Shown here piece after piece: positions 1,853 to 54,151 of a stretch of 64,000 bases of DNA. The stretch covers positions 26,566 through 90,565 of the forward strand of contig CANJZQ010000006.1 of the NCBI GenBank assembly GCA_947479535.1, read 5' to 3'. Position numbers and translations under genes: made by a program. Every line of letters starts with the position of its first letter. The stretch's first letter is position 1. Origin of the DNA: Oligoflexales bacterium (GTDB lineage: Bacteria; Bdellovibrionota_B; Oligoflexia; Oligoflexales; RGVZ01). Below the pieces are notes generated by a model. It was not told the DNA's origin, ran no database searches, and was given only the letters and a program-made list of their open reading frames with translations.

Positions 1853-3991
1853 GTGTACCCTTCCCCTTCAAATATGCGATTCAAGATCGGGGTCATTTTG
1901 CTCGCGCTCGCGGCTGCTGGACTGATCTTATATAAGTTTGCAAACCGGCAGCTCAACCAACAGGCAGCCTTGCGCCTGGAATCACGACTGGCTGCCTTGG
2001 AATTAAAAACCGGCATCAAAACCGTCCCTGTTGGTTTTTCTGTTGGCTTTGGCGCCATGCGAATCCGTTCATTGCAAATCATTTTGCCAACCCGCGACCG
2101 GCTCTCGAAAAAATTATCGGCACCGATGGCAGATCACGATCCCGATATCGCCGAACTTCTGCAACAGATCGAACCAGCCTTGCGGTCCCTGATCCGCGAA
2201 TTGCGCACCAACTCAGATGAACCAAAATCAAAAGCCATCATGCCCCGGATCGCCCGATGGTTTTTACCGACACGGATTGTCTTTGATATCGCCAAAACTG
2301 AAATCATCGCCGACCGGACGGGATCAAACGCAGGAAAAAAAGAATTAATTCTGAGTGCCACAGAATTTCACGTCCGCCTTGACCGGCGCACACCCAGGAT
2401 CAATTTTCACGCAAAAGAACTTCAATTAACCGGATTCGTACCTGAATCAAACGTCAGCGGGCACCTCAGGTTATGGCCAAAGACCGGAGCCGTCGAACTA
2501 ACCGCATCCCAGACGCCCGATGCAAAATACCACGGTTGGGGCCTTCGCATCAGGACCGGCATCGACACCAGAAAAATTGAGGTATCGATCAACGGTGCGC
2601 ACATGCCGCCGTCCCTTGCGTCGATCCTTGGCAGTTTTGTCGTTCCCTCCACCGATACAACTTTTGAATCCAATCTGGAGTTGTCCCAACTCGGCACGGA
2701 GATGGTGTCGTTCAAGGCATCGATAAAATTTCGAGACCTCTATGTTCACAACCAGATCATTGCTCTGAAAGAAATCGGACCAATGCACCTGGACGCGAAC
2801 TTCAACGGTGCATTTGATCCTGCCAGTTCTGAACTGATCATCGATCACGGGCGGATCGAGCTGCCAGCGCCGGTCGAATTTGAACCTGCAGAACGAAACA
2901 TGGCGCAACGGTCCAACTTCGACTTTGAGGTTGCCGGGGCTATCGAACCAGCCGTCATCGTCAATCTTCGTGCGAATGGGCCTGTAGCCTTGCCAAAAAC
3001 GGTGCAACGCTTCCTGGCACGTTATTTTCCACCCTCATCAAAAAGGTCTCCCCCCGAAACCTGGTCGGTAAGAGCCTTCGTCGCTCGAACCCCTTGCCAG
3101 GCACTGGTCGACATCCTGCCCGCGAAGTTAGCCCCGGCTTTGGATGATTTCATGCTTGCCGGAGACTTCATGGGAATCATGACGGTGACGTGGCCAAAAC
3201 GAAGGCCGGCTGATTTTCAACTGCAGATGAGTCACGACGAATTCACTTGCGAAGTCGCAAACGAGCCCGATTTTTACGCGGCCAAAAACCTCAACGGCCC
3301 GGTGACAGTCCAGAGGCGTTCCCGTGGCATGCCCAACCGGACCATTGATCTGGGACCGCAAAACCCTGCGTTCGCTCCATACCGCAGCATCGGCCGTTCC
3401 TTTGTCACCACCGTTGTGGCCGCAGAAGACACCGGGTTTTGGGGTCATTCTGGGGTCGCGTCAATTACCTTCCTGGATGCCTTGAGAGATAATTTGGCTG
3501 CAGGACACCTTGCTCGCGGTGGTTCCACGATCACCATGCAGCTGGTGAAAAACCTTTTGCTGAATCACGAACGCACCGCAAGTCGCAAACTCCAGGAATT
3601 TTTTCTCGCCTGGCATCTGGGCCGGACGCTTACGCGGGAAAGAATCCTTGAGCTTTACGCCAACGTTGCCGAATTCGGGCCCAATATTTTTGGTGTCGGA
3701 GAGGCGGCGGATTTATATTTTGGGAAAAAGCCCTCAGACCTGACCATCAAGGAAAGTGTCTTTTTGGTCAATCTGCTGCCAGCACCAGTGAGCCGTGCAG
3801 AAGCCTTCTGTCGTCACCAGCAACCAACTGAGAATTTCAGCCTTTTGATGAACAACTTGATCACCCGGATGCGGACCCTCAAGATCATCAATGAAGAAGA
3901 GCGGAATCAAGCGGCTGCGGAACACCTGACATTTCGCATGGACGACGATGCCATTGGAAAACTCTGTCACCCTGCAAAGGAAGCCACATGA
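1853..3991 (+). CDS. GT51 peptidoglycan glycosyltransferase domain protein with long AsmA-like N-terminal region, no transpeptidase domain
   Basis: VVAAEDTGFWGHSG, GGSTITMQLVKNLLL and ILELYANVAEFGPNIFGVGEAADLYFGK are GT51 motifs; about 500 aa beta-rich N-terminal region after one TM helix; start may be at 1874. Confidence 0.85.
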   Translation: MYPSPSNMRFKIGVILLALAAAGLILYKFANRQLNQQAALRLESRLAALELKTGIKTVPVGFSVGFGAMRIRSLQIILPTRDRLSKKLSAPMADHDPDIAELLQQIEPALRSLIRELRTNSDEPKSKAIMPRIARWFLPTRIVFDIAKTEIIADRTGSNAGKKELILSATEFHVRLDRRTPRINFHAKELQLTGFVPESNVSGHLRLWPKTGAVELTASQTPDAKYHGWGLRIRTGIDTRKIEVSINGAHMPPSLASILGSFVVPSTDTTFESNLELSQLGTEMVSFKASIKFRDLYVHNQIIALKEIGPMHLDANFNGAFDPASSELIIDHGRIELPAPVEFEPAERNMAQRSNFDFEVAGAIEPAVIVNLRANGPVALPKTVQRFLARYFPPSSKRSPPETWSVRAFVARTPCQALVDILPAKLAPALDDFMLAGDFMGIMTVTWPKRRPADFQLQMSHDEFTCEVANEPDFYAAKNLNGPVTVQRRSRGMPNRTIDLGPQNPAFAPYRSIGRSFVTTVVAAEDTGFWGHSGVASITFLDALRDNLAAGHLARGGSTITMQLVKNLLLNHERTASRKLQEFFLAWHLGRTLTRERILELYANVAEFGPNIFGVGEAADLYFGKKPSDLTIKESVFLVNLLPAPVSRAEAFCRHQQPTENFSLLMNNLITRMRTLKIINEEERNQAAAEHLTFRMDDDAIGKLCHPAKEAT

Positions 3992-21922: not shown

Positions 21923-23164
21923 ATGCGACCAAACCCTGAACAGTTGGAACAGGACGGAAGCGCTCAGGCCCCCGGTTTGAGCAGGTCGGAACAACGTTTG
22001 GTGGGCCTTCTGGCGTTCGTCCAGTTCGTCAATATCCTTGATTTCATGATGGTTATGCCCCTGGGGCCAGACTTCAGCGCCGAGCTTGGAATCCCAACCT
22101 CACATTTGGGAATTGTTGGGGGCAGTTACACGGCATCTGCCGCCGTCAGTGGGCTGATTTCAGCCTTTTTCCTGGACCGCTTTCCTCGCAAAAAAGCCCT
22201 GATCATCGTCATTGCCGGACTGGGAATCGCCACCATGGCCGGGGCCCTGTCCACCGGGCTGGCCTCTCTCCTCACGGCACGAATCGTTGCCGGTGCATTC
22301 GGAGGGCCGGCCTCTGCCCTTGCCCTCGCGATCGTTGCCGATTCGATCCCGATTCGAAAACGGGGGCGAGCCCTGGGGGTCGTCATGGGTGCTTTTTCCC
22401 TGGCTTCAATTGCCGGGGTTCCGGTGGGTCTGGAACTGGCGCGCCTCGGCGGTTGGCGCACCCCGTTTATCGGGGTTGGCGCTTTGGCACTTCTGGCGAT
22501 TATCGGAACGCACCGGTTCATGCGCGAGCCCAAAGTGCACATGAAAGCCCCCAATCTTAATTGGCGGAAATTGATCGGGCATTTGAGCCATGGCGACACG
22601 GTGATCTCCCTTGCATTGGCCGCAAGTGTCATGTTTTCTGGGTTCATCGTGATCCCAAACATCGCCGCATTCGTTCAGAAAAATCTAAACTTCCCCCGCG
22701 ATCAAATGGGCGTGATGTACTTTACGGGCGGCCTTGCCAGCCTGGCATCGATGCAGATTGCAGGCAGGATCACCGACCGTCTGGGCTCCATGCTGACCAT
22801 TTGGACTGGAACGATCGTTGTGCTCGTCGCCCTTGTCTTTGGATTTGCCGCGCATCATGCCGCATTCACTCCGGTGGTGATTGCAACGCTGTTCATGACC
22901 GGAACCTCCATCCGGGCCATTTCGTTCAATACGCTGACAAGCCGCATCCCATCGCCGCAGGAACGCGGGGCATTCATGTCCTTGCAATCGACGGTGCAGC
23001 ACGTGGCTTCGGCATCGGGAGCCTTTGTATCTTCAAGGTTGCTCACATCGGATCCAGATGGCAGGCTACTTGGCATCGAAATGGTTGCCACCATTTCGGT
23101 TATTGTTTCCCTTTTTGTTCCAATTCTGGCGGGAATTCTGGAACGACGACTGGCAAAACGCTAA
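21923..23164 (+). CDS. MFS transporter
   Basis: 12-TM pattern; QFVNILDFMMVMPLGPDF, FLDRFPRKKALIIV MFS loop. Confidence 0.9.
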   Translation: MRPNPEQLEQDGSAQAPGLSRSEQRLVGLLAFVQFVNILDFMMVMPLGPDFSAELGIPTSHLGIVGGSYTASAAVSGLISAFFLDRFPRKKALIIVIAGLGIATMAGALSTGLASLLTARIVAGAFGGPASALALAIVADSIPIRKRGRALGVVMGAFSLASIAGVPVGLELARLGGWRTPFIGVGALALLAIIGTHRFMREPKVHMKAPNLNWRKLIGHLSHGDTVISLALAASVMFSGFIVIPNIAAFVQKNLNFPRDQMGVMYFTGGLASLASMQIAGRITDRLGSMLTIWTGTIVVLVALVFGFAAHHAAFTPVVIATLFMTGTSIRAISFNTLTSRIPSPQERGAFMSLQSTVQHVASASGAFVSSRLLTSDPDGRLLGIEMVATISVIVSLFVPILAGILERRLAKR

Positions 23165-42285: not shown

Positions 42286-42320
42286 ACCCGTCATCCTGAG
42301 CGCAGCGAAGGATGACGGGT
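42286..42320. repeat. 12-bp-stem palindrome in a GTCATCCTG-type repeat between convergent genes (possible bidirectional terminator)
   Basis: ACCCGTCATCCT-GAGCGCAGCGA-AGGATGACGGGT; preceded by two 18-bp tandem copies of CGTCATCCTGCACCAAyC (42253..42288). Confidence 0.75.
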
Positions 42321-48984: not shown

Positions 48985-49006
48985 AAAGAAAGGATCCTTC
49001 GCTTTG

Positions 49007-49079
49007 CTCAGGATGACGGGGATTATCGCGTCACCCTCAGGATGACGGGGATTATCGCGTCACCCCCAAAGATGACGGG
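49007..49079. repeat. 29-bp tandem repeat (2.5 copies) of GTCATCCTGA-family sequence between C25 protease and rarA
   Basis: CTCAGGATGACGGGGATTATCGCGTCACC at 49007..49035 and 49036..49064, partial copy to 49079; preceded by GGATCCTTCGCTTTG. Confidence 0.85.
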
Positions 49080-50804
49080 TTACTCCCCCACCATCAAATC
49101 CAACTCCGGGTCACCAATGAGGTTTGACTCCAAAGCTGTGTACACCATGACATTCGAGCGGTCCACAGAAAGCACGGCAGCCTTTGCCATGTGGTTCATG
49201 AAGCCAACGGTTTTAATCTTGTCCTTAAATCGCATCGACCAGAACGCCCGGTGCAATACCGCGGAGCTCCCTTCGCCATCCCGCCCGGGCTCGTACCAGC
49301 CGTAACGGGTGTTGGAGATCATTGCCGCCGGACCAAAATCAGGCAAGCGCACGGCATGGATCGTCCAGTTGTCGATGTCTGGATTGTTCGGATAACACCC
49401 CTGAGAGTAGAAGAATGCCGGACGCGACTTGAATTCTGAAACTCGAGTCGTATTCATGCGCAGTGCATAATCAGAATTCGCATGTCCCAGGTGATTCATC
49501 ACATGGAAATCCCCTGCGGCCATCGTCTCAAGAAACTGGTCTGCACTGACGGGTGCATTGAACTCATCGTAAAGCTTCGTAAACTGCGTTGAATCTGGAA
49601 AGCCGCTGGTGATTGGCGCCACATTGCGACCTGTCTCCAGGTTATCAAGGCTCCACCCACCTAAAGTTGTGCGATCGAGCTCTTCACCAAACGACATTGC
49701 CGTCATTGTCCGGCCTGCCTTTCCAGCATCAACGAGAGCCATGTGCTTCCCGACCCACGCGGCCAATTGGTCCGTCGTCTTGACGCCAACACGGCCGACT
49801 GCGACCTCACATTGCCAGTCGTATTGGCTGGCTGATCCAGTAAATGTCCCATCCAGGCAGCCATAATACTGGTCGGATGGGACTGGATCGCCGTTGTTGC
49901 TGCCCATCCCGGAACGAATCCGCTGCCATGGCAAATTCGCCTTGTCGCCGACAAGCAACACATAATCAATGGCGTCGTCGCGATATTTGCTTTTGATGAA
50001 TTCCCGGATTTCTGCGGCTGTAGGATTGGTACCGATCGATTCAAGGGTTGCGAGACTCACACGGAGTCCCCGGGCGCGTTTTTCCTCGATCAATGGGCGA
50101 AGCACTGTATTGGATTCGTCTCCAATGATCGCCTGCTTTCCGATGATCAGGTATCCAACTGGCGCCTCGTCCACTTCCGCAATTCCGCGCGACGTTTTTG
50201 TAACGATGACGTCATTGTCAATATTGCGAACCGCGAGTTCAAAATCCCGCGCCAGATTGGGGCGTAGCATCCTGCCGAGGGGAGCGCGTTGAACTGGCGA
50301 GGTTTCCACCGTGATTTTAATTGAGTTAAAAAATCGCGCCTTCGTGGGACTGATCATCTGGAAGGGATAAACGGGCACTTCCACAAAATCAAATCCGCGA
50401 AAAGAAACCACGCGGGGTTCGCCGATTAACTTCGCTGGATATAATCCGGCAACATAGCGGGAAACCAAAGGCCTTGTGTCATAGCCAAGGGAAATGACCC
50501 GCTGGCGGCCGGCCATTTGCGGCGTGTAGTCAATTTCGGATCCCTCGGACGCCTCGTACTTGACGTAATTCAGCCCCTGTCCGGCGGGGAGCATCACTTT
50601 CAAGGTCCGCACCGGGATCACCGGGTGGAGTTCCTTCCGGTAATCTGGCAGGGTCTTGCCCCAGGGACGGCAATCTTCATCTGCCCGGCAACGACCGTCC
50701 ACCGGACTTTTGATGTCAAACGAGAGCTGTTTGGTGATGGTTTCTGCGAGCCCGGTTCCACTGGAGACTAAAACCAGAGCTGCGGCGAAAAATGAATTTC
50801 TCAA
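49080..50804 (-). CDS. Peptidase C25 (gingipain-like) family secreted protease
   Basis: YLIIGKQAIIG, RDDAIDYVLLVGDKANLPWQRI, FHVMNHLGHANSDYALRM and FFYSQGCYPNNPDI (His/Cys dyad region); signal peptide. Confidence 0.85.
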   Translation of the reverse strand: MRNSFFAAALVLVSSGTGLAETITKQLSFDIKSPVDGRCRADEDCRPWGKTLPDYRKELHPVIPVRTLKVMLPAGQGLNYVKYEASEGSEIDYTPQMAGRQRVISLGYDTRPLVSRYVAGLYPAKLIGEPRVVSFRGFDFVEVPVYPFQMISPTKARFFNSIKITVETSPVQRAPLGRMLRPNLARDFELAVRNIDNDVIVTKTSRGIAEVDEAPVGYLIIGKQAIIGDESNTVLRPLIEEKRARGLRVSLATLESIGTNPTAAEIREFIKSKYRDDAIDYVLLVGDKANLPWQRIRSGMGSNNGDPVPSDQYYGCLDGTFTGSASQYDWQCEVAVGRVGVKTTDQLAAWVGKHMALVDAGKAGRTMTAMSFGEELDRTTLGGWSLDNLETGRNVAPITSGFPDSTQFTKLYDEFNAPVSADQFLETMAAGDFHVMNHLGHANSDYALRMNTTRVSEFKSRPAFFYSQGCYPNNPDIDNWTIHAVRLPDFGPAAMISNTRYGWYEPGRDGEGSSAVLHRAFWSMRFKDKIKTVGFMNHMAKAAVLSVDRSNVMVYTALESNLIGDPELDLMVGE

Positions 50805-50891: not shown

Positions 50892-52448
50892 TTGATGTTG
50901 TACCAAAAGGACATTCAAAACATGTTGTATCGTCAACTGATTTTGGGAATCGCCGTCTCATTGTTTGGTTCCGTTGCCATGGGCGCTGAACCAAATTCTT
51001 TATGGATAAAAAAAACAGTTGCGGAGGCCTTGGACCAAGCCAGACGTGAAAAAAAACCGGCATTGCTTTATTGGGGCGCCGTCTGGTGCCCACCATGCAA
51101 TCAGTTGAAGGCTCAGGTGTTCAGCCACCCGGATTTCGCGACGGCAACTTCCTCCTTCATCCGCATCTACCTGGATGGCGACGATGCCGGCGCCCAAGAT
51201 TGGGGCGAAAAACTCAACGTATCCGGTTATCCGACAGTCCTTGTCCTGGCTCCCGAAAAACATGGCCGCGGGATCAGAATGAAAGAACGACTCCGGATCG
51301 CAGAATTCGTTAATTTCGCTGAATTCCGGACGTTGCTTTCGACGGCACTTGCCAGCAGCATGCCAATGAAAAAAGACCTCGCCTCAAAGGCGTTGCACGG
51401 CAAGGCGACTTCTGAGGAATGGAAACTCCTGGCGTTCACTTGGGATATTGCGGAGACCACATCCAACGCGGATGAAGCGCAGACAAAATCTGCAGTCGAC
51501 GAATTAAGAAAACTTTTTTCTTCGTGTCCTTATCCGGAAATCCGGGGCTTGTTGGCTGCACGCCTTCTGAATTTAGATGCCGGAATTCACCCCGAGTGGC
51601 TGGAAGCCGTCATCGCGAACGAAGCGTCGCTGTATGCGGCACGAGGACCCCTCCTTGCTGGGGCAAGCCAATGGCTGGAGAAGGCGCCATCAGACACCGC
51701 CCGGGATACCGCTGATAAACTTCGCGCTGCCATCAAAAGGCTACGCGACCATCCCGGCATTAGTCCGGCAGAACAATTGCAAACATGGGTCACCAGCCTT
51801 GACCTTGAGCAACACATGGCCGACCGCAAATGGATTGATTCCAGACAATGGGAGAAAACCCGCGACGACGCTGTCTCCGCGGCAATTCAAATTGAGTCGT
51901 CCAGCAAGTCCCCTTTCGAACGCCATGCTGTCGTCAGTGACGCGGCTGGGATTTTTGCAGCCGCAGGGAAAATAAACCTTGCGATGGAATTGCTCAAACG
52001 TGAAGCCGGCACCTCTGATACACCGTGGTATTACCAATCCACTTTGGGCTCCTTGGCCCTTCAGAAAAAAGAATACAAAGAAGCTCTAAACTGGTCCGCA
52101 AAGGCGCGGGACAGCGCACAGGGTCCAGCCACCAGGCTTCAGTGGCTGGCAAGCGACATCTTGCTGCAGTCCAAAATCATTCGTGAGCAGGCGGCAAACG
52201 GATCCCCAAAAGTGACTTCTGAAGAGGCCACGGCGCCAGAAATTGCAACCTGGTTGGATCTGGCAAAGTCTCTCCCCGACGGCTTCTCAGGACGAAATGC
52301 CTTGCGTGCACGCAAAATAAAAGAAGCAGTCACAGCATGGGCAGAAACACCCATTAAACGGGCAACGCTTACAAAATGGACAGAAACTTGTATCATGCTT
52401 AAAAAAGAGGCGAAAAACGCCTGCACTAAAACACTGCTAAAAGACTGA
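50892..52448 (+). CDS. Secreted thioredoxin-fold protein (DsbD-gamma/TlpA-like) with long helical C-terminal region
   Basis: ALLYWGAVWCPPCNQLKAQVF CxxC motif, VSGYPTVLVLAP; start possibly 50922. Confidence 0.8.
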   Translation: MMLYQKDIQNMLYRQLILGIAVSLFGSVAMGAEPNSLWIKKTVAEALDQARREKKPALLYWGAVWCPPCNQLKAQVFSHPDFATATSSFIRIYLDGDDAGAQDWGEKLNVSGYPTVLVLAPEKHGRGIRMKERLRIAEFVNFAEFRTLLSTALASSMPMKKDLASKALHGKATSEEWKLLAFTWDIAETTSNADEAQTKSAVDELRKLFSSCPYPEIRGLLAARLLNLDAGIHPEWLEAVIANEASLYAARGPLLAGASQWLEKAPSDTARDTADKLRAAIKRLRDHPGISPAEQLQTWVTSLDLEQHMADRKWIDSRQWEKTRDDAVSAAIQIESSSKSPFERHAVVSDAAGIFAAAGKINLAMELLKREAGTSDTPWYYQSTLGSLALQKKEYKEALNWSAKARDSAQGPATRLQWLASDILLQSKIIREQAANGSPKVTSEEATAPEIATWLDLAKSLPDGFSGRNALRARKIKEAVTAWAETPIKRATLTKWTETCIMLKKEAKNACTKTLLKD

Positions 52449-52455
52449 ATGAATC

Positions 52456-53250
52456 ATGGCAGAATCGCCCAAACCCGTCGCCCTTGTCACCGGTGCCAAC
52501 CGTGGCATCGGATTTGAAGTTTCCCGCCAACTAGGCGCGAAGGGCTTCAGGGTCATCATGACATCGCGCGATGACGTTAAGGGGCAAAAGGCTGCAAGAA
52601 CCCTGGCCGGTGAAGGTCTGGATGTTGTGTTTTACCAATTGGACGTCCTGCGCCTCGATGACAACAAGGTCGCCAATGACCTGAAGCTCTTCATCGATTC
52701 ACAATTCGGACGATTGGATGTCTTGATCAACAATGCCGGTGTTTTTTTGGATCCCTCTCGCGCTCGCGGTGGATCACCAAGTGTTTTTGACGCAAAGTTA
52801 TCGCTGATCCGTCAGACCATGGACATCAACCTCTATGGACCTCTGGTCCTCTGTCAAATAGCAATGCCACACATGCGCCGGCAACATCATGGCCGGATCG
52901 TCAACGTATCCAGCGGCATGGGGCAGATGAGCGAAATGGGTAGTGGTTACCCTGGCTACCGCCTGTCCAAGGTCTCCTTGAATGCTTTGACGAAGATTGT
53001 TGCGGCAGAAGTGGACAACGATTTTCATGAGACCGACATCCTTGTAAACGCGGTGTGTCCCGGCTGGGTGCAGACCGAAATGGGCGGCGAAGGTGCAACA
53101 ATTCCCGTGGCTCAGGGGGCCGATCCGATTGTTTGGCTGGCCACCCTGCCCAAAGGAAGCGGGCGGGACAAAAACCTCGTCAGCCGCATTGGCGGGGAGG
53201 ACCGCCTTAACGGCTTGTTTATCCGGGGCCGTAAAGTGATACCATGGTGA
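52456..53250 (+). CDS. Short-chain dehydrogenase/reductase
   Basis: ALVTGANRGIGFEVSRQL, VLINNAGVF, VNVSSGMGQM, YPGYRLSKVSLNALTK, VNAVCPGWVQTEMGG. Confidence 0.94.
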   Translation: MAESPKPVALVTGANRGIGFEVSRQLGAKGFRVIMTSRDDVKGQKAARTLAGEGLDVVFYQLDVLRLDDNKVANDLKLFIDSQFGRLDVLINNAGVFLDPSRARGGSPSVFDAKLSLIRQTMDINLYGPLVLCQIAMPHMRRQHHGRIVNVSSGMGQMSEMGSGYPGYRLSKVSLNALTKIVAAEVDNDFHETDILVNAVCPGWVQTEMGGEGATIPVAQGADPIVWLATLPKGSGRDKNLVSRIGGEDRLNGLFIRGRKVIPW

Positions 53251-53624
53251 TAATGAAACACCTTCGCATCATCATTGCTCTGATTTCATGCTTGTCTTTC
53301 GCGGGACGGGCGGCAGCGCAATGGAACTTTCTTGAACTTGACTCCACGCTTGCCCAGATCATGGATCATCAGGTGCAGGATGATGATTCGGGCTGCTGCT
53401 GCGATGAAGATGAGAAAGCAAATGAAGAAGAATCTTCCGACGACTGCTGTGAAGATTCCTGTGATGCCTCGCTCTGCCCCGTATGCGCAGATCAGATCCT
53501 TCCTGACAGTCTCCTTGCAAGCCTTCCGTCCCTAAAATCCACGCCGTTGTTAATGTTTGAATTATCCAGCGCCATCTCCGATGGCTGCCGTTTTGGCCTC
53601 GAGCGTCCTCCCCGCATCGCCTGA
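53244..53624 (+). CDS. Small secreted Cys/acidic-rich protein of unknown function
   Basis: Signal peptide then DDDSGCCCDEDEKANEEESSDDCCEDSCDASLCPVC; overlaps SDR gene end by 7 nt; alternative ATG at 53253. Confidence 0.6.
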   Translation: MVIMKHLRIIIALISCLSFAGRAAAQWNFLELDSTLAQIMDHQVQDDDSGCCCDEDEKANEEESSDDCCEDSCDASLCPVCADQILPDSLLASLPSLKSTPLLMFELSSAISDGCRFGLERPPRIA

Positions 53625-53679
53625 TTCTTTTTTAAGCGCTTCTACTAAAAATCTGTGCATCAAAAAATTCCTTGAATGA

Positions 53680-54090
53680 ATGGAGTTCAATATGAACCGC
53701 ATTTTGTCGAAACTTTTTGCATTGATGTTCCTCGTCGGCTTCTCCATGAAACTTTATGGCGCACCGATTGCAATTAAGGCCAATCCCGTGGAATCCAAAA
53801 CCCACACAACCGGGCAAACGCAACATCACGACGATTGTGGCGACTGTGATGATGGCGATTGCGACGATTGTGATGATTGCGATTGCCATGATGGCGACTG
53901 TGGCGACTGCTGCCACGACGGTTGCGACAGCGGATGCTGTGAAGATTGCGATTGCGGCTGTGACTGTTGTGACGGCGGCTGTGACGACGGCAAATGTGAC
54001 AACGGCAGCTGTGACTGCAACGGCTGCGAGGACTGCGACTGCCAAGACTGCGATTGTAATGACGGCGATTGCCACGACTCCAAAAAATAA
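53680..54090 (+). CDS. Secreted Cys/Asp/Gly-rich low-complexity protein (metallothionein-like composition)
   Basis: Signal peptide MNRILSKLFALMFLVGFSMKLYG (likely ATG 53692); last 88 residues contain 27 Cys in D-C, D-D-C and C-x-x-C spacing. Confidence 0.68.
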   Translation: MEFNMNRILSKLFALMFLVGFSMKLYGAPIAIKANPVESKTHTTGQTQHHDDCGDCDDGDCDDCDDCDCHDGDCGDCCHDGCDSGCCEDCDCGCDCCDGGCDDGKCDNGSCDCNGCEDCDCQDCDCNDGDCHDSKK

Positions 54091-54105
54091 AGTCGTGTGA
54101 TCCTG

Positions 54106-54140
54106 AGCGGGGCCCCGTCATCCAGTACGGGGCTCCGCCT
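54106..54140. terminator. GC-rich imperfect palindrome between convergent genes
   Basis: GAGCGGGGCCCCGT-CATCCAGT-ACGGGGCTCCGCCT, near-perfect stem just after the stop at 54090 and before the pirin stop at 54152. Confidence 0.5.
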
Positions 54141-54151
54141 GCGAATCACCA

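Follow-up and report, generated by a model that had tools for sequence, protein, structure and literature searches.

On contig C6 of a lake bacterium of the Oligoflexales (genome of 2.4 Mb, 91% complete), a window of 64,000 nucleotides, which is the whole stretch of DNA analysed here, contains an ORF whose product is rich in Cys, Asp and Gly behind a signal-peptide-like N-terminus, and a second small ORF with clustered Cys directly upstream of it. The question raised by this locus is whether these are a tandem pair of similar metallothionein-like proteins, as the initial annotation had it, or two proteins of different kinds. On balance it is probable that the pair is a metal-response unit, in which the first gene would encode a nascent-chain metal sensor and the second an exported metallothionein-like sponge.

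Genomic Setting of the Pair

The nearest relative of the host found in a named collection is the Oligoflexales metagenome-assembled genome CANFEB010000034, of the phylum Bdellovibrionota. The host's own genome is referred to here as G000, and its congeners as G001 and G003, each approximately 90% complete, and G002, an Oligoflexales metagenome-assembled genome. The features of the locus are collected in Table 1.

Table 1. Features at and around the leader and Cys gene pair, in window coordinates.
Feature	Coordinates	Strand	Evidence
Thioredoxin-fold protein, exported, WCPPC; possible operon mate	50892..52448	+	Thioredoxin_7 E 6e-13
Short-chain dehydrogenase (SDR), possible operon mate, abuts leader	52456..53250	+	adh_short E 1e-41
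Leader ORF, 123 aa, Sec signal peptide by sequence; candidate CutF/CruR-like nascent metal sensor	53253..53624	+	
Codons of GCRFGLERPPRIA-stop tail, candidate ribosome-arrest motif	53583..53624	+	GLERPPR kept in G002
Intergenic region from leader to Cys gene, 67 nt (59 nt in G002)	53625..53691	+	
Predicted RNA hairpin, part of SD and start codon of Cys gene	53678..53704	+	
Shine-Dalgarno (SD) GGAG of Cys gene	53682..53685	+	Identical in G002
Cys/Asp/Gly-rich protein of 132 aa with 27 Cys, signal-peptide-like N-terminus; candidate metal sponge outside the cytoplasm	53692..54090	+	
HHDD...SKK region, residues 45-132, includes Cys/Asp core; short degenerate repeats	53824..54087	+	
Strong GC-rich hairpin, no T-run, between Cys gene and convergent pirin gene	54107..54138	+	

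The thioredoxin-fold protein that had been placed about 0.8 kb upstream is borne out by its Thioredoxin_7 match and its WCPPC motif. The distance of 0.8 kb between this gene and the leader is indeed present, but it is not empty, being filled by the SDR gene, so that four genes are packed tightly on one strand. The surroundings of the pair were not found in the congeners by DNA search. No metal transporter or metal regulator directly adjoins the pair, which counts against the sensor model. The gene row itself is adjoined on the minus strand by a gingipain-type C25 peptidase with a signal peptide (49080-50804; Peptidase_C25, E 5e-38).

Coding Status of the Cys Gene

The ORF was initially annotated at 53680..54090, and this frame is upheld, as are the 88 residues from HHDD to the end with their 27 Cys. 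The preferred start is ATG 53692, 12 nt inside the one first given, with the SD sequence 6 nt before it; since both this SD and this ATG are also present in G002, the protein is taken to be 132 aa in length.

A stretch that is repetitive, and in which other frames are also open, might carry such an ORF as a functionless low-complexity accident of a GAY-TGY repeat. Comparison with G002 effectively refutes this origin, which can be set aside for practical purposes. The frame stays open in that relative, where an intact copy of 129 aa is 78% identical over the aligned positions, with near identity in the signal-peptide region and in the end CHDSKK, and the indels between the two genes are in-frame only. 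At aligned codons, 58 of the 91 base differences fall in third positions (p=3e-9), as do 40 of the 59 within the Cys core alone (p=7e-8), and for the N-terminal part the NG86 estimate of dN (0.17) is well below that of dS (0.88). The signal peptide, the C-terminus, the SD and the partner gene are all conserved. By this comparison the ORF is a real gene, and the third-position bias settles that the plus-strand frame is the coding one, a point of some weight given the other open frames in this stretch.

An Ala/Val/Ile-rich ORF of 147 aa on the minus strand at 53632-54075 could be mistaken for a membrane protein by a gene caller; it was rejected as a real gene, as the third-position bias favours the plus frame.

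The core of the window copy is built of degenerate repeat units of 9, 12, 15, 21, and 24 nt. The repeats in G002 differ from these and are fresher, with a 15 nt unit present four times in perfect copies and units of 45-51 nt. That the repeats differ while the composition is kept means that repeat turnover is ongoing and that the Cys/Asp/Gly content, not the exact pattern, is held.

Composition and Likely Role of the Cys Protein

Of the 82 residues of the core, 30 are Asp, 27 are Cys, and 13 are Gly; the Cys are spaced as CxxC (8), CxC (7), and CC (3). Cys makes up 25% of the mature part, in which there is no Phe, Trp, or Tyr, and the net charge is -29. Other called genes of the window have a Cys content of at most 3.3%, except for the leader, at 7.9%, and an end ORF, at 6.2%. 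The last of these is a truncated exported ORF with approximately 6% Cys, at the contig end (63567-64000).

The N-terminus of the Cys protein, MNRILSKLFALMFLVGFSMKLYGA, resembles a Sec signal peptide and is kept in G002. The signal peptidase site would lie after YGA, which is not the classic AXA and counts against the model. There is no match to a Pfam or NCBIfam family, metallothionein families included, and a profile search of the PDB gave insignificant matches only, to small disulfide-rich peptides. A cytochrome c is ruled out by the absence of the CxxCH motif.

Bacterial metallothioneins such as SmtA/BmtA and PmtA reside in the cytoplasm, and their Cys and His follow defined patterns. The Cys protein is like them in being small and Cys-rich, with CxC and CxxC and hardly any aromatic residues, but differs in its signal-peptide-like N-terminus, its Asp content of approximately 30%, its repeats, and its lack of a profile match. 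As a rule of thumb, metallothioneins use 20 Cys for 7 Zn, and on this analogy the 27 Cys here would hold some 9-10 divalent ions, or a larger number of Cu(I). Of the initial interpretation, the candidate exported metal sponge stands as the best reading of the downstream protein, given the signal-peptide-like N-terminus, the lack of aromatic residues, the metallothionein-like Cys spacing, and the absence of both CxxCH and an MNIO enzyme; the tandem pair, discussed below, does not.

The 26-27 Cys could also indicate a disulfide-linked polymer of the surface or periplasm, or a thiol-based redox buffer, on which the thioredoxin-fold protein would act. The periplasm is an oxidising compartment, and the WCPPC gene lies two genes upstream on the same strand. 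The proposal is nonetheless improbable. Protein searches of the congeners gave no match for the thioredoxin-fold, SDR, and pirin genes, including in G002, which keeps the pair, its contig ending at the leader. High Asp and CxC/CC spacing are typical of metal-thiolate proteins, a partner with the anatomy of a metal sensor points to metal, and conservation does not support a role in a coat or in redox buffering.

Bufferins and oxazolins are comparable to the sponge envisaged here in that they are peptides with Cys repeats which, once exported, sequester extracytoplasmic copper (PMC12452194). The Cys protein might by analogy be a post-translationally modified metallophore precursor (RiPP) of this type, MNIO-modified and Sec-exported, since the common plan of a Sec signal ahead of a region of Cys repeats, in a copper setting (PMC12452194), would accommodate it. 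Such peptides require an MNIO enzyme and a partner (PMC12452194), neither of which was found: there is no MNIO enzyme (PF05114) in the 91%-complete genome, by a search whose control works in Caulobacter, and there is no partner gene beside the pair. There is, moreover, neither an EGKCG-type repeat nor a DUF2282 match, and it is very improbable that the Cys protein is a precursor of this sort.

The Upstream ORF

The upstream ORF also proves to be as first reported, its start probably being ATG 53253 (alternative 53244). Judged by sequence, it begins with a signal peptide, MKHLRIIIALISCLSFAGRAAA-Q, with a hydrophobic core of 2.83. There follow an acidic stretch and then C65, C66, C70, C75, and C78, which provide the motifs C66-EDS-C70 (CxxxC) and C75-PV-C78 (CxxC). 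The C-terminus is G-L-E-R-P-P-R-I-A-stop, in which R118, P119, and P120 are numbered out of 123 residues, and Cys are found 39, 42, and 47 residues before the RPP.

In G002 the contig ends within the leader, so that only the last 39 or so residues are readable, which counts against the model. It ends NRPLILEVRHPLGDGWQIGLERPPRAA-stop, 59 nt before the G002 Cys gene. The sequence GLERPPR-x-A-stop is common to the window and G002, with synonymous differences in the GLERPPR codons.

This anatomy is not that of a second copy of the downstream protein, and the tandem pair of similar Cys-rich proteins put forward by the initial annotation is not sustained: the leader has a single CxxxC/CxxC cluster, followed after approximately 40 residues by an ERPPR end. 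It might still be that two exported metal-binding proteins share one operon, the upstream one being a stable chaperone or a second sponge, under ordinary transcriptional control and with no arrest. Both do begin in the manner of a signal peptide and contain acidic stretches rich in Cys, and the hairpin evidence for translational control, given below, is weak. That explanation is unlikely, however, as the comparable conserved part of the leader is the extreme C-terminus, GLERPPR-x-A-stop, whose distance from the Cys cluster is fixed. An end of this type is a hallmark of CutF/CruR leaders with no evident use in a chaperone, and no homology is seen between the leader and the Cys protein.

Comparison with CutF and CruR

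By the published rules, CutF-like proteins have fewer than 150 (170) aa, a Sec signal, a central CxxxC or a Cys/His variant of it, and PP within the last 15 residues (PMC8456105, PMC9973294). The leader has all of these, being 123 aa long with a signal peptide by sequence, C66-EDS-C70 with C75-PV-C78 in addition, and P119 P120, kept in G002; the downstream gene that the rules also expect follows on the same strand after 67 nt (59 nt in G002). Indeed, of the window's 278 ORFs of 60-170 aa, no other combines a PP end with a Cys motif lying 35-60 residues ahead of it and a hydrophobic N-terminus.

The R. capsulatus protein CutF has the Cys motif C69xxxC73 and the C-terminus EGPPPRL (PMC9973294, PMC8456105). 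Its export is delayed on copper binding and the ribosome dwells at the Pro-rich end, whereupon a stem-loop over the next SD is opened (PMC9973294). CruR arrests at RAPP, as evidenced by toeprinting (PMC12992588); this arrest is relieved by copper, and the CxxC is 45 residues before the RAPP (PMC9426467). The spacing from Cys to Pro motif is approximately 45 residues in both.

The leader is like CutF (cutFOG, Rhodobacter capsulatus) in being small and, to judge by its signal peptide, Sec-exported, with a CxxxC and a terminal Pro-Pro followed by Arg, EGPPPRL in CutF and ERPPRIA in the leader, and in lying only a short distance before a gene of extracytoplasmic metal defence, which is presumed to be such here. 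It differs in that the downstream gene of CutF is a multicopper oxidase and here a Cys/Asp-rich candidate sponge, in having no clear strong stem-loop over the SD, and in having no detectable sequence homology outside the motifs. With CruR (Bordetella pertussis, DUF2946) it shares a CxxC at a near-fixed distance from a C-terminal Arg/Pro-Pro, 45 residues in CruR against 39, and presumably, by analogy, an action on the next gene after the start of transcription. CruR ends RAPP, and copper switches the TonB transporter off by way of Rho-dependent termination (PMC9426467, PMC12992588), whereas the leader ends ERPPR, has no DUF2946 match, and precedes a presumed detoxification gene that would be turned on. 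That the end is not the ribosome-arresting RAPP or RGPP counts against the model.

No Pfam or NCBIfam match was obtained for the leader, and the DUF2946 (PF11162), CzcI, and CopL profiles were negative, the end being RPPR, not RAPP; the same profile scan also misses SilD, which is a named CutF-like protein. BLASTP of the leader tails and tblastn of the leader tail against plasmids gave nothing significant. The link between the leader and CutF therefore rests on anatomy and on the published rules, not on alignment.

The Massilia sp. H6 plasmid NZ_CP103372.1 carries an unannotated ORF of approximately 142 aa (L043 ~2994-3425), with a Sec signal, CSSCSAFC, and the end DGPRRPPRHQSA, at the head of a TolC-family/copper-oxidase operon. 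Its Cys lie 39, 43, and 46 residues before RPP, so that the shortest spacing, 39, is that of the leader as well. On these features it is an overlooked CutF-like leader. Two ORFs on Cupriavidus metal plasmids, each with a Sec signal, have CDAC-40-RPP and CSAC-40-RPP, and these hypothetical proteins of metal-resistance plasmids are CutF-like by the rules, although they do not carry that annotation. They are located at L018 5701-6096 (pMOL30 RMET_RS30505) and L042 2977-3375, upstream of a methyltransferase gene.

The CzcI and DUF2946 profiles have no match in the host's own genome, while the relatives give one CruR-like candidate. This ORF, in G030 of the same order (L032 1471-1920, minus strand), has CASC, a C-terminal RGPP, and a weak DUF2946 match. 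The next ORF on that strand, of 374 aa, is porin-like, and the G030 protein is thus a CruR-like leader candidate within the order.

RNA Features

A hairpin involving part of the SD and the AUG of the Cys gene is predicted in both the window and G002 (z -2.1 and -2.8 over 50 nt). It shows no covariation and ranks 6th of 31 window start regions by stability. This is compatible with translational control, and is not proof of it. Beyond the Cys gene, the predicted, very stable GC-rich hairpin (54088-54150; -30.9 kcal/mol, z -3.9) is probably the end of the transcript.

A Model for the Pair

In the metal-response unit proposed here, the product of the first gene would be a small Sec-exported leader, whose Cys cluster would bind metal within or close to the translocon before the ERPPR end has left the ribosome. 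The ribosome would pause at that end, the pause would alter the mRNA around the next start, and the Cys gene would be translated under metal excess. Outside the cytoplasm, soft and divalent metal ions would then be bound by the 27 Cys and 30 Asp of its product.

Metal would be expected to turn the sponge on, by analogy with CutF, which precedes a detoxification gene; the opposite sign of control, as in CruR, would be less sensible at this pair. Cys-type CutF-like leaders are mostly upstream of copper genes, and a CopA-type P1B ATPase is encoded in the host genome, which would suggest copper as the most likely metal, with zinc, silver, and cadmium as further possibilities.

Nascent-chain metal sensors are known upstream of oxidases, RND pumps, TonB receptors, and periplasmic chaperones. 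Among the published neighbour classes of CutF-like leaders there is no metallothionein-like protein, and the word "metallothionein" is absent from the main text of the paper that lists them, such lists being by Pfam class, in which a domainless protein would not appear. The pairing of sensor and sponge looks new, its parts being known in kind. It is put forward only tentatively that an exported sponge is under a nascent-chain sensor, with metal measured at the translocon, an immediate translational response without a transcription factor, and a pair that is mobile as a unit.

If right, the pair would connect two fields and be a simple two-gene metal-responsive cassette, its downstream protein would be a further kind of extracytoplasmic Cys sponge besides the bufferins, without modifying enzymes, and CutF-like control would reach the Bdellovibrionota. 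Small Cys-rich secreted ORFs with an RPP(R) end would, moreover, probably be leaders rather than sponges.

Distribution and Possible Movement of the Pair

No homolog of the Cys protein other than that of G002 was found by profile search in 58 genomes of the phylum, and there is no copy in the congeners G001 and G003, nor elsewhere in the order or class. Peptide patterns searched in approximately 85,000 GTDB genomes found it in G002 only, in a scan that needs one of two short peptides, so that compositionally similar unrelated proteins would escape it. It was likewise not found in plasmids or viral contigs. A match in G022 (E 0.006) contains stops and is due to chance. The GLERPPR pattern is present in five genomes of the phylum, G000, G002, G004, G009, and G010, and in the last three, of which that in G004 is in an excinuclease-like gene, it is a chance occurrence by context. 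The pair is known from two genomes only, which counts against the model.

The pair of G002 adjoins an MFS gene, the ortholog of which is at approximately 21985-23161 in the window. In both the window and G003 the place directly after this MFS gene is taken by a symporter-type gene and not by the pair. That the place is different in G002 and both genes are nevertheless kept shows that the leader and the Cys gene stay together, and the differing MFS neighbourhood indicates that the pair is accessory and that it, or its surroundings, moved as one unit.

A dispersed repeat of approximately 35 bp, GAAAGGATCCTTCGCTTTGCTCAGGATGACGGGG, is found in the window at 48985-49065 and 42287-42313, at G000:C10:73-217 (L036), in L010, and in L005 (13211-13240). 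It is present four times in tandem at one contig end, and is also found beside the pair in G002, where it is a possible seed for relocation of the pair.
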